In this document: piece after piece, positions 27,649 to 53,141 of the stretch
Layout of the letters: each line of letters opens with the position of its first letter
Position numbering within the stretch: the stretch's first letter is position 1
Assembly: GCF_019670005.1 (NCBI RefSeq)
Contig: NZ_AP019783.1
Location: forward strand, 4,490,150 to 4,554,149
DNA from: Methylomagnum ishizawai
GTDB taxonomy: Bacteria > Pseudomonadota > Gammaproteobacteria > Methylococcales > Methylococcaceae
Reading direction: 5' to 3'
Length of the DNA stretch: 64,000 nucleotides
Position numbers and translations under genes: made by a program
Notes under the pieces: generated by a model
What the model was told of the DNA's origin: nothing
The model's input: only the letters and a program-made list of their open reading frames with translations
Database searches by the model: none

Positions 27649-28392
27649 TCAGGTGTTCTTCAGGAAGCGGACGTTGGAGAACCAGCGGCCGACGAAGTGC
27701 CACATGAAGTAGATCAGGATGGACATGAAGCCGGAGAAGAACGCGGACACCGGGGCCACGTCCTTACCGAAGGTACGCAGGGTGCCCTTCTCGACCATGC
27801 GGATGTACTCGGGGGTGCCGGTACGCACATAGTTGTAGCCCTGGATGTCGGCGATGGACATCAGCATGCCGTTGTATTCAACCGGCACGTGGATCGGGGC
27901 GATGATCGGCCAGTTGCCGGGGTAGAAGATCAAACCCCAGGCCAGGCCACCGATGATGGCGGTGAACAGGTAGCTGCCGGACAGCATCAGGCAGACGTCG
28001 AGGATGATCGCGCCCGGGACCAGGATGGCCGGGAACACGAAGTTCACGGGGAAGTAGGTCCAGCCCCAGAAGTTGAAGTAGCGGTTGACCCATTCACCGA
28101 ACAGCAGCGCCAACACGCACACGGTCGCGGCCCACGGCTGGCGGAAACGTTCCCACAGGAACACCTGCGCGGCGGCCGGGAAGGTCACCAGCACGATCGG
28201 GGTCACGGTGACCCACAGGCGGCGGTCCTTCCAGTCGGACCAGAAGTCCCAGTCGCCCATGGTCAGCATCGCGTGGATGTGGTACGAACCGCAGATGACG
28301 AAGAAGAAGATGAACAGGCCCAGATAGTCGATGGTCCGGGAAACCTGCACGGCCTCGGCGTGGGACCGGACCGCAGATTGAAGTGCGCTCAT
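27649..28392 (-). CDS. pmoA: Particulate methane monooxygenase subunit A
   Basis: A 247-residue integral membrane subunit with about seven transmembrane helices, including LGLFIFFFVICGSYHIHAML and FIFPVNFVFP-type segments. Blocks such as GDWDFWSDWKDRRLWVTV and the EYIRMVEKGTLRTFG end are those used as the methanotroph marker. Similarity to methane rather than ammonia oxidisers is seen in these blocks. GGAGG lies 6 bases before ATG 28392, the strongest ribosome site of the three subunit genes. Confidence 0.98.
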   Translation of the reverse strand: MSALQSAVRSHAEAVQVSRTIDYLGLFIFFFVICGSYHIHAMLTMGDWDFWSDWKDRRLWVTVTPIVLVTFPAAAQVFLWERFRQPWAATVCVLALLFGEWVNRYFNFWGWTYFPVNFVFPAILVPGAIILDVCLMLSGSYLFTAIIGGLAWGLIFYPGNWPIIAPIHVPVEYNGMLMSIADIQGYNYVRTGTPEYIRMVEKGTLRTFGKDVAPVSAFFSGFMSILIYFMWHFVGRWFSNVRFLKNT

Positions 28393-49960: not shown

Positions 49961-51115
49961 ATGTTCATGCCATTTTATATGCCCGGCAGACGGCGCTTGC
50001 GGGTCGTGGTCGCGGGTGGCGGCTATGCGGGCTTGGCGGCTTTATCGGCCCTCAGGACACAGCGCCCGGATGCCGATCTGGTCCTGATCGACCCCCGTCC
50101 CCACCATCTCAAAATCACCCGTCTCCACGAAAGTTTCCGCCGCCCGCTGGCCGAGTTCCAGGTGCCGTTCAGCGCCTTGGGCCGGCGCTTCGGTTTCCGC
50201 CATGTCCAAGCCGCGCTGCCCATCGACGAACCGGCCTTGTCGCAATGGAATACCGGACGCGCCCTGACGGTCGATGGCGCGGCGCTGGAGTTCGATTACC
50301 TCTTGATCGCCACCGGCGGCAGCTACCGCAAGCCGGAAAAAAGCCCGGAAACCCTGGACCTGGACGATTTCAGCACCGAAACCGGCTCCGGCTTGATCGA
50401 CCTCTACCGCGACGCCATCGAGTCCCGTGGGCGCTATCTGACCGTGGTGGGCGGCGGCGCGACCGGCATCCAATTCCTGTTCGAGATCGCCCATTACCTC
50501 CAGCGGCAGCGCAGCGCCTGCCGTTTGCGGCTGGTGGACGCCGACCCCGCCCCGCTCGGCCAATTCCGGCCCGGCCTGGGCCGTTATGCGCAGGTCCGTC
50601 TGGCCGATCTCGGCATCGATTACCACCCCGACCAAAGGTTCCAGGCCCAGGCCGATGGCGTCCTCCAGCTCCAAGCCCGCGCTTCCGGCCAGCCGCTGGC
50701 CTTGGCCTCGGACCTGACGCTATTGTTCCTGGGCAACAACCCGGCCCAGCGCTGGGAGGCCAACTGGTTCGGCCAGGTCGTGAGCGGCGGCGCGGCGCTG
50801 GAACGCATCTATACCGCCGGGGATTGCTCGCGCTACCGCCCGCCGGGCTCCAACGCCCTGAGCGCCCAGACCGCCCTGCGCAAGGGCCGGCTCGCGGCCC
50901 GCAACATCCTGCGCCACGCCAGTCCGGTGCGGCTGTTGGAACCTTATCTCTACCGCGACCTGGGCTATGTCGTCAGCCTGGGACCGGAGGATGCGGTGGG
51001 CTGGATCGGCCTCGAACGCAACGTGGTGGGCGGCGCGCCCGCCAAGGTGGCGAAGGATATCGTCGAGGCCCAATACGATCTACTGCTGGCGGGGGTCGAT
51101 ACCTATATGCCGTGA
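49961..51115 (+). CDS. NDH-2-like FAD-dependent pyridine nucleotide oxidoreductase
   Basis: A 384-residue flavoprotein with the FAD dinucleotide fold VVVAGGGYAGLAAL near the N-terminus, a second NAD(P) fold TVVGGGATGIQFLFEIA (about 163-179) and the FAD-binding IYTAGDCSRY (about 284-293). The layout is that of type II NADH:quinone dehydrogenases and sulfide:quinone reductase relatives. No conserved redox cysteine pair is visible, so NADH dehydrogenase-like is preferred. AGGAAGGGG precedes ATG 49961. Confidence 0.82.
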   Translation: MFMPFYMPGRRRLRVVVAGGGYAGLAALSALRTQRPDADLVLIDPRPHHLKITRLHESFRRPLAEFQVPFSALGRRFGFRHVQAALPIDEPALSQWNTGRALTVDGAALEFDYLLIATGGSYRKPEKSPETLDLDDFSTETGSGLIDLYRDAIESRGRYLTVVGGGATGIQFLFEIAHYLQRQRSACRLRLVDADPAPLGQFRPGLGRYAQVRLADLGIDYHPDQRFQAQADGVLQLQARASGQPLALASDLTLLFLGNNPAQRWEANWFGQVVSGGAALERIYTAGDCSRYRPPGSNALSAQTALRKGRLAARNILRHASPVRLLEPYLYRDLGYVVSLGPEDAVGWIGLERNVVGGAPAKVAKDIVEAQYDLLLAGVDTYMP

Positions 51116-51253: not shown

Positions 51254-51721
51254 ATGTTGTTTGGCGCTAAACAGCCGGTCGTGGCGAAGGCCAGCACGGT
51301 CATCAAGAAGCCCGTGGAGGACGTGTTCCATTTCATCGGCGAGGAATTTTTCAGCAACTACCCCAAGTGGTCGCCCGAGGTGGTCGAATTGAAACCGCTG
51401 TCCAACGGTCCGGTGCAGGTCGGTTCCATGGCTTGGCAGGTCCGGGTTGACCGCGGCCACCGCAGCGAATCCACCTTCGCCGTCACCGATCTCCAACCCA
51501 ACCGGCGCATCGCCTTCAGCGGCGTCTCCAACGCCTATCATTGCGCCTACGAATTGCGGCGGGCCGACCCGGATGCGGCCACCCAGGTCGCGTTCACCTT
51601 CGAACTGCCGGAATTGGAACTCTATATGCGGCCCTTCGAGAAATTGATCCGGCTCGCCGTGCAGGAAGGGGCCGAGCGCACCGTCCAGAATCTCAAGGGC
51701 TTGATCGAAGGCCGGCCCTGA
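51254..51721 (+). CDS. SRPBCC (START-like) family protein
   Basis: A 155-residue protein of the polyketide cyclase/START fold: KASTVIKKPVEDVFHFIGEE, YPKWSPEVVELKPL and a C-terminal amphipathic helix KLIRLAVQEGAERTVQNLKG. These proteins form a hydrophobic pocket for small ligands. Function unknown. AAAGGAGG precedes the ATG. It lies 138 bases after the flavoprotein gene and 58 bases before a LOV photoreceptor gene on the same strand. Confidence 0.82.
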   Translation: MLFGAKQPVVAKASTVIKKPVEDVFHFIGEEFFSNYPKWSPEVVELKPLSNGPVQVGSMAWQVRVDRGHRSESTFAVTDLQPNRRIAFSGVSNAYHCAYELRRADPDAATQVAFTFELPELELYMRPFEKLIRLAVQEGAERTVQNLKGLIEGRP

Positions 51722-51779: not shown

Positions 51780-52238
51780 ATGTTCTTCGTGGCAGAAAAA
51801 GACCCCGGCCTGATTCCCCAGGTGTTATCGACGATCCTGGATGCATGCGTGAACGGCGTCACCCTGGCCGACCCGGATTTGGACGACATGCCCATCGTCT
51901 ACGCCAACAAGGCGTTCGAGACCATCACCGGCTACACCCAGCCAGAAATCCTGGGCCGCAATTGCCGGTTCCTGCAAGGCCCGGACCCCGACCCGGCCAT
52001 CCGCCACCGGATCAAGGAAGCCATCGGCCAATGCCAGCCCATCGAAATCACCCTGAGGAACTACCGCAAGAACGGCGAACTGTTCTATAACCATCTGGCC
52101 CTGACGCCCTTGTTCGACCGCGAGGGCGGCTTGATCTACTACCTCGGGGTGCAATACGACGTGACCCGGCAGGTGGAGGCGGAGGAGGAAATCCAGCGCC
52201 TCAGCGAAACCCTGGAACAGGTCGGCAGGCTGGCCTAG
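51780..52238 (+). CDS. Short LOV-domain blue-light photoreceptor
   Basis: A 152-residue PAS protein whose LOV signature is complete: GRNCRFLQG with the photoactive Cys62, Asn94 in LRNYRKNGE, Asn104 in LFYNHL and Gln125 in YLGVQYDVT. These residues bind FMN and make the light-driven cysteinyl adduct. The rest is a short N-cap and a C-terminal amphipathic helix (about 130-150, QVEAEEEIQRLSETLEQVGR) with no output domain, as in short LOV proteins of Pseudomonas. Such proteins usually dimerise through the terminal helices. GGAGGAG precedes the ATG. Confidence 0.88.
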   Translation: MFFVAEKDPGLIPQVLSTILDACVNGVTLADPDLDDMPIVYANKAFETITGYTQPEILGRNCRFLQGPDPDPAIRHRIKEAIGQCQPIEITLRNYRKNGELFYNHLALTPLFDREGGLIYYLGVQYDVTRQVEAEEEIQRLSETLEQVGRLA

Positions 52239-52356
52239 GCAAGGGGGCCGCTGGGCGGCGGGGAGGTTGAGTCGCCGTGGGATTCGGGCTAGAGTCCGCG
52301 CCGTGGCGGCCCGCCATGGCGGATTTTCTTCCAAAGCAACAGCAGGTTATTCGGGT

Positions 52357-52818
52357 ATGGCGAACATATCTACGAGCGTGTGCGTGAATTACACGGCCAC
52401 GGAAATGTACGAACTGGTCAACGATATCGAGGCTTATCCCAGCTACGTCCCCATGTGTTCGGCGGTGAAGCTGATTTCCAAGACGCCCACCCGCCTCAAG
52501 GCCGCGCTGACCCTGGCCAAGGGCAAGATCAAGCTGTCCTTCACCACCGAGAACACCATGGAGGCGGGCCGGGGCATCCAGATGACACTGGTCGAGGGGC
52601 CGTTCAAGCAATTGCGCGGGGTGTGGCGGTTCGAGCCTTTGGCCTCGGGCGGTTGCGAGACCACGTTCCGGCTCGATTACGAGTTCGCCAATGCCTTGCT
52701 GGGCGTGGCTTTCGGCGGCTTCCTGAAGGAGGTCGCCGGGTCCATGGTCCAGGCTTTCTGCGACCAAGCCGCCCGCAAATATGGCGAGCGGCCCAAAATC
52801 CCGGCCCAACGCCGTTAA
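52357..52818 (+). CDS. ratA: RatA-like COQ10/START protein
   Basis: A 153-residue member of the COQ10 family: YTATEMYELVNDIEAYPSYV, SFTTENTMEAGRGIQMTL and FGGFLKEVAGSMVQAF. The E. coli protein RatA (YfjG) was reported to block 70S assembly, while COQ10 proteins bind ubiquinone; the quinone role seems more general. The usual partner ratB and the smpB gene are not adjacent here. Confidence 0.88.
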   Translation: MANISTSVCVNYTATEMYELVNDIEAYPSYVPMCSAVKLISKTPTRLKAALTLAKGKIKLSFTTENTMEAGRGIQMTLVEGPFKQLRGVWRFEPLASGGCETTFRLDYEFANALLGVAFGGFLKEVAGSMVQAFCDQAARKYGERPKIPAQRR

Positions 52819-52835: not shown

Positions 52836-53141
52836 ATGTTGTTCATCGCCATGAATCGTTTCAGGATCGCGCCCGGCAAGGAGGAGGAGTTCATCGAGAT
52901 TTGGCGGAAGCGCGAGTCTTATCTCGACGAAGTGCCGGGGTTCAAGGAATTCCATCTGTTGCAAGGCCCGGCCACCGAGGAATACAGCGTGTTCGCCTCG
53001 CATTCGGTGTGGGAGTCGCGGGAAGCGTTCGAGGCTTGGACCCATTCCGAGGCGTTCCGCAAGGCGCATTCGGGGGCGGGCGCGGCCAAGGGTATTTATT
53101 TGGGATCACCGCAGTTGGAGTTGTTCGACGCGGTGATTTGA
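52836..53141 (+). CDS. ABM-fold monooxygenase, IsdG-like heme-degrading candidate
   Basis: A 101-residue ferredoxin-like protein of the antibiotic biosynthesis monooxygenase family. Asn7, Trp68 and His78 match in order and spacing the catalytic triad Asn7/Trp67/His77 of IsdG heme oxygenases (AMNRFRI, FEAWTHSEAFRKAHS). This supports heme degradation rather than a quinone-forming role, but no heme uptake gene is nearby. TTAGGAG precedes the ATG. It follows ratA after 17 bases. Confidence 0.78.
   Translation: MLFIAMNRFRIAPGKEEEFIEIWRKRESYLDEVPGFKEFHLLQGPATEEYSVFASHSVWESREAFEAWTHSEAFRKAHSGAGAAKGIYLGSPQLELFDAVI

Follow-up and report, generated by a model that had tools for sequence, protein, structure and literature searches.

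A candidate short LOV photoreceptor of Methylomagnum ishizawai is inherited with a START-fold SRPBCC protein, mostly close to a gene for a membrane redox or lipid enzyme

The window, the whole stretch of 64,000 nucleotides from Methylomagnum ishizawai that was analysed, contained a gene for a short LOV protein of 152 aa on the forward strand (51780..52238), with an ATG start preceded by the ribosome-binding-like sequence gggaggagaccc. The photoactive Cys62 lay within the motif NCRFLQG and, together with Asn94, Asn104 and Gln125, was invariant in 63/63 aligned relatives; the initial annotation had named and numbered these four residues correctly. Pfam returned PAS-type domains alone (best PAS_9, E 4.4e-21) and the protein consisted of a single LOV domain without an effector domain, in agreement with the earlier claim that no output domain is attached. 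A sequence search of the PDB showed that short LOV ("sensory box") proteins were the closest to it (E 2.7e-32). Mean column conservation of the N-cap (residues 1-30, in 15-residue blocks) was 0.78 and 0.84, about that of the LOV core and unlike the C-terminal stretch from residue 136 (0.50), which hints that the N-cap may serve as a signalling or binding surface. At residue 70 (51987-51989), a proline was present only in the window protein among the 63 relatives and an arginine was present in 52. The arginine matching this position slows recovery in PpSB1-LOV.

Two genes preceded the LOV gene on the same strand, an NDH-2/FSP1-like FAD-dependent oxidoreductase (49961..51115, with the ATG at 49961 or 49967; Pfam Pyr_redox_2, 3.9e-16) and an SRPBCC (START/helix-grip) protein (51254..51721; Pfam Polyketide_cyc2, 2.2e-13) separated from the LOV gene by 58 nt. 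Both had been proposed from the sequence beforehand and were confirmed, each by Pfam and the flavoprotein also by PDB sequence match. Further 5', on the opposite strand, Pfam identified an ABC-transporter ATPase, and the opposite-strand genes there are taken to be the cytochrome c maturation genes ccmA-C. Between the LOV gene and the next gene, a terminator-like hairpin at 52299..52321 of the forward strand gave weak evidence of a possible transcript end: the region contained 2 such sites, against an expectation of 3.8 after shuffling, and a similar stretch was visible in the sister genome G018. The next gene on the forward strand (52357..52818; Pfam Polyketide_cyc, 5.9e-33) encoded a second SRPBCC-superfamily protein resembling the RatA family, with 144 bits in the NCBIfam RatA model, below the cut-off of 258. 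This RatA-like gene was located 3' of LOV in many Methylococcaceae loci and its membership in the LOV cassette is doubtful. It was followed on the same strand by a HmuQ-type heme-degrading protein (52836-53141), which scored above the NCBIfam cut-off, and beyond it by FliW.

Sequence matches in the PDB for the NDH2-like protein included Staphylococcus aureus NDH-2 (1.3e-13) and FSP1/AIFM2 (about 2e-10), and two glycine-rich motifs as well as AGDC and AQxAxRKG were conserved in 16 aligned rows. NCBIfam gave one weak match of 30.7 bits vs a cut-off of 310. The protein of 382 aa is apparently related to the NDH-2/FSP1 quinone reductases over most of its length, including the FAD/NAD motifs, and differs in having AQxAxRKG at the site where NDH-2 usually carries its second Gln. 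It can be described as a putative quinone reductase at the membrane.

The AlphaFold model of the SRPBCC protein, produced with 60 sequences, had a pLDDT of 93.1 and a pTM of 0.86. The model, the fold matches and Pfam all showed the helix-grip fold with a long C-terminal helix of the SRPBCC superfamily. The best match with VIA-align was the plant ABA receptor PYL2 (Z 18.7, rmsd 2.1, 146 residues, 16% identity), and Foldseek aligned the protein with the TcmN aromatase/cyclase at a TM of 0.80, while the sequence search of the PDB gave no match at E≤0.1. Residues Y36, W39, Q62, R64, P127, F128 and G139 were invariant in the 60 sequences. The likeness to START-fold proteins such as the PYL receptors and TcmN is one of common fold at about 16% identity. 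START-fold proteins commonly hold hydrophobic ligands, and a common fold alone shows no function; the modelled SRPBCC partner appears to have the ligand-pocket type of fold.

Relatives of the window LOV (the LOV subfamily) were found in 20/38 genomes of its family and in 143/301 Methylococcales genomes drawn evenly across the order, and the window LOV is thus no chance reading frame. The order count was derived from 146 genomes at E≤1e-35, from which G127, G143 and G265 (1e-36 to 1e-38) were dropped because all the others were at 5e-54 or better. In the family, 36/38 genomes had some LOV/PAS match at E≤1e-15. The initial annotation had named absence from related strains, together with a lack of expression, as evidence against a photoreceptor, and for the first of these the outcome was divided, with the gene present in 20 family genomes and cleanly missing from G018 and G009. 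In the class sample, the LOV subfamily (matches at 58% identity and above) was present in 6/369 genomes. The 177 plasmid records with LOV-like matches were all below 60% identity.

The SRPBCC gene adjoined the LOV gene in 32/32, 19/19 and 39/39 loci of three overlapping sets, and at LOV loci outside the subfamily this SRPBCC gene was found within 1.5 kb in 0/23. It was absent at the two f177 LOV loci, L082 and L091, which may belong to Pseudomonas. For 58/62 LOV rows, some of which come from the same genome, the SRPBCC gene was directly upstream on the same strand with a gap of 2-315 nt. The other four comprised one row cut by a contig end and three first copies of tandem pairs, for which the SRPBCC gene either fell outside the extracted sequence or was separated from LOV by about 430 nt. 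Tandem SRPBCC-LOV pairs were observed at L056 (3697-7386), with a RatA-like gene between the pairs, and at L113 (5877-9591). Across the 301 Methylococcales genomes, 142 had both genes, one had LOV only (G292), six had SRPBCC only (G009, G018, G175, G203, G274 and, with a weak match, G261) and 152 had neither. This count is not independent of the linkage since the two genes are adjacent, and what gives it weight is that the pairing recurs in other orders and in another class: four Nitrosomonadaceae/Nitrosomonadales contigs carried the pair and G835, which belongs to another class, had an SRPBCC gene beside 2/3 of its LOV copies. Overall, a LOV protein that retains the photoactive cysteine and one specific START-fold SRPBCC are inherited together, and it is well supported that this SRPBCC gene is a near-constant companion of the LOV subfamily and no casual neighbour. 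These data fit the earlier guess of signal transfer to a separate partner.

Comparison of 39 loci, covering at most 8 kb to each side of LOV, showed a gene of the fatty-acid-hydroxylase family (FAH, PF04116) in 28, an NDH2-like gene in nine (eight on the LOV strand and one divergent), both in two and neither in four. The NDH2-like gene went with f1, the window's family (Methylococcaceae), with the four Nitrosomonadaceae/Nitrosomonadales contigs (L051, L052, L054 and L055) and with G621. FAH went mostly with the family f8 and was also beside the SRPBCC-LOV pair in G835. The FAH homologues of the window genome itself (68% and 51% identity) were located away from the cassette. Most SRPBCC-LOV pairs thus have a gene for a membrane redox or lipid enzyme nearby, and this enzyme is exchangeable, usually of the NDH-2/FSP1-like type or of the FAH family.

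In a tree of 66 LOVs, the Nitrosomonadaceae LOVs were placed inside f1 with a support of 97/82; an AU test did not reject the tree that keeps the f1 rows together (p 0.108). A Methylococcaceae donor of the Nitrosomonadaceae cassette, which was considered on the 97/82 placement, was not established given this AU result. The family f1 was judged to hold Methylocaldum, Ca. Methylumidiphilus and Methylotetracoccus. The f1 genome G016 and copies in the f1 genomes G033 and G034 fell among the f8 LOVs, FAH adjoined LOV in G016 and G034, and the LOV of Methylobacter marinus grouped with f8. The simplest reading is that the cassette was transferred as a unit, with no direction implied.

The sister genome G018, the sole other genome of the genus searched, retained the NDH2-like protein (90% identity) and the SRPBCC protein (93% identity) and had no LOV gene. 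Apart from one clean gap, about 550 bp long, its DNA aligned with the window; the gap removed LOV and altered the last residues of SRPBCC, and RatA came after it. In G009, where LOV was missing as well and NDH2 was likewise kept, SRPBCC was followed directly by RatA, and the HmuQ-type gene was retained in both genomes. Retention of SRPBCC and NDH2 in genomes that lack LOV indicates that both are useful without light control, so the LOV protein would be a regulator on top of the SRPBCC/NDH2 function. The clean loss of LOV in G018, with all else kept, can also be read as showing no light-gated contact; the LOV protein would then sense redox state or oxygen, or would simply share its inheritance with other genes of one pathway. 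AlphaFold on a read-through SRPBCC-LOV chain defined no interface, in an uninformative run (pTM 0.48, 26 rows), and Cys23, which corresponds to the turn cysteine of McLOVr, was present in 55/63 relatives, a residue of the type that PMC4416707 ties to oxidative stress in fungal LOVs. However, Cys62 was invariant, which would not be required of a LOV that senses redox state alone, and one specific SRPBCC type was retained across classes while other neighbours varied; this reading was considered improbable.

The reading favoured here, held with somewhat less than even confidence, is that a small cassette responds to light with the LOV protein as its sensor, and that this sensor targets the SRPBCC protein, which in turn works for the membrane enzyme. 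Blue light would produce a Cys62-flavin adduct in the window LOV, the resulting change would be read out via the N-cap, which is conserved, and the dimeric LOV protein would bind or release the SRPBCC protein. The latter may carry a quinone- or lipid-like hydrophobic ligand and could thereby set how the neighbouring enzyme handles the membrane quinone or lipid pool, with the likely purpose of protecting or adjusting the internal membranes under blue light. Against this reading, an AlphaFold run on a read-through SRPBCC-LOV chain defined no interface, 6/148 SRPBCC genomes had no LOV, which shows that SRPBCC works without it, and genes that lie side by side tend to come and go together even where their products do not touch. 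The neighbouring enzyme also varied, and 4/39 loci had neither NDH2 nor FAH.

The output could alternatively run through transcription, with the LOV protein binding a class II LitR or another repressor encoded elsewhere and the SRPBCC, NDH2 and FAH genes being light-induced neighbours, as in the Pseudomonas mendocina type. PmSB-LOV in the light binds the LitR-type repressor PmlR2 and acts as an anti-repressor (PMC9758184), a LitR-like gene adjoined the cassette in three loci (L048, L049 and L050), and the window genome has a LitR-like gene. This gene, the only one found there (L158, 8096-9112, reverse strand), was on a separate contig of 70 kb (C4). G018, which carries no LOV, nevertheless keeps its LitR-like gene, and the contig that holds it is of a size similar to C4. 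No PmlR-like site with up to 3 mismatches was found in the cassette, and elsewhere in the window there were 8 vs 8 expected. LitR-like genes were detected in 14/301 genomes (LOV carriers 9/143, others 5/158; Fisher p 0.27), in a survey that would miss a LitR diverged too far for the query or other regulator types. With so few LOV carriers having one, LitR cannot be the general output and was rejected as such at the sensitivity used; where present, it may be one output. The transcriptional alternative as a whole was judged possible and somewhat unlikely.

PF02461 (PmoA/AmoA family) matched three copies in the window genome, which fits a methanotroph. One was within the window (about 27658-28371, reverse strand), and it had the same score as the copy at G000:C1:2316783 of the window genome (G000). 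Three copies were also present in G621, which has NDH2 at its LOV locus. Among the 369 class genomes, the LOV subfamily was present in six, PF02461 in 11 and both in three (G000, G044 and G621, two of which share one order; Fisher p 0.0004), in a survey of PF02461 confined to this sample. A strict link between LOV and copper monooxygenases was also considered and was rejected as partial only, since 3/6 LOV carriers of the class sample had no PF02461 match (G641, which is 85% complete, G564 and G454).

How methane and ammonia oxidisers cope with light matters ecologically, and the cassette may help them to do so. Ammonia monooxygenase is inactivated by light and then needs new synthesis, and the comammox Nitrospira inopinata is stopped by light below about 550 nm (PMC9797979). 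In its broadest form, the proposal is that the LOV switch bypasses transcription and works straight on the quinone or lipid chemistry of the membrane, gating a START-fold carrier for an NDH-2/FSP1- or FAH-like enzyme, and that the cassette moved among bacteria dependent on light-sensitive copper monooxygenases, where it guards internal membranes; in this full extent it was regarded as rather unlikely. By its distribution, the subfamily suggests blue-light sensing in many methane oxidisers and also in some relatives of ammonia oxidisers, and the gene content points to a putative light-controlled membrane function in these bacteria. The missing output makes short LOVs a well-known puzzle, and the two separate bacterial LOV partners in the literature compared were both repressors (PMC9758184; PMC10890935). 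The LOV subfamily described here has a built-in candidate partner of a kind other than a transcription factor, which makes the output question testable with two small proteins.

A short LOV in a methanotroph is not new in kind, and the statement of the initial annotation that blue-light sensing in these bacteria is little described needs correction on this point: the McLOV proteins of Methylocystis bind flavin, bleach under blue light, form the adduct and are dimers (PMC4416707). The interpretation given in that annotation was partly supported overall. Pro12 and Asp20 of the McLOVr N-cap correspond to Pro13 and Asp21 of the window LOV, both present in 63/63 relatives, and with the turn cysteine also shared, the window LOV belongs by sequence with the McLOV subfamily and is a new member of this known group of short LOVs. 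Recovery took 38 s in McLOVn and 80 and 180 s in McLOVr, and replacement of Thr27 by Ile slowed McLOVr to 12300 s (PMC4416707). Since the corresponding Thr28 of the window LOV was invariant in 63/63 relatives, fast recovery would be expected by analogy.

Methylocystis also has a regulator that combines an amidotransferase, a helix-turn-helix and a LOV domain; the construct made of its LOV spans residues 337-490 (PMC4416707). The same architecture of 490 aa was present in G835, where the third LOV forms the C-terminus of a DJ-1/PfpI-AraC protein (L172, 5992-7464, reverse strand) and the two short LOVs, at 62% identity to the window protein, lie beside SRPBCC and FAH; we infer that G835 represents Methylocystis or a near relative. 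A competitive dimerisation, as proposed for Methylocystis, in which the short LOV pairs with the LOV of a transcription factor and tunes the regulator, would suit the dimeric McLOV proteins (PMC4416707) and the combination found in G835. However, the window genome, unlike Methylocystis, showed no AraC-LOV regulator among the 14 other PAS/LOV loci scanned, the stronger ones of the genome's 24 PAS/LOV matches at E≤1e-3, and the N-C-R-F-L-Q type motif was absent from all 14. The motif with the photoactive cysteine has been lost from the next closest LOV-like domain of the genome (L002, 1501-1872, reverse strand; 42% identity, within a frame of 681 aa). With a second Cys-LOV absent from the loci scanned, competitive dimerisation was rejected for the window genome, and we consider this explanation very improbable.

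Direct action on the SRPBCC protein, the reading preferred here, was compared with the published systems. The words SRPBCC, operon and upstream are absent from the main text of PMC4416707, and no paper joining LOV and SRPBCC was found in the literature searched, beyond which one may exist. Domain-name searches gave no paper on LOV in methanotrophs or Nitrosospira fitting this system, and on methane oxidation under blue light the titles and abstract starts searched reported no receptor. Novelty lies in a START-fold partner that is near-invariant, together with an exchangeable membrane enzyme, a combination of which no description was found in that literature. PpSB1-LOV and PmSB-LOV of Pseudomonas, the best solved-structure matches, are of about the same length as the window LOV, have no output domain and use a separate partner (PMC9758184). 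That partner is a class II LitR, whereas the window cassette has no adjacent LitR and LitR is mostly absent from LOV carriers. Finally, LdaP of Dinoroseobacter shibae is a LOV protein without its own output that works via a separate protein, as proposed here, and differs in that its partner PpsR represses photosynthesis genes and in acting mainly in the dark (PMC10890935).
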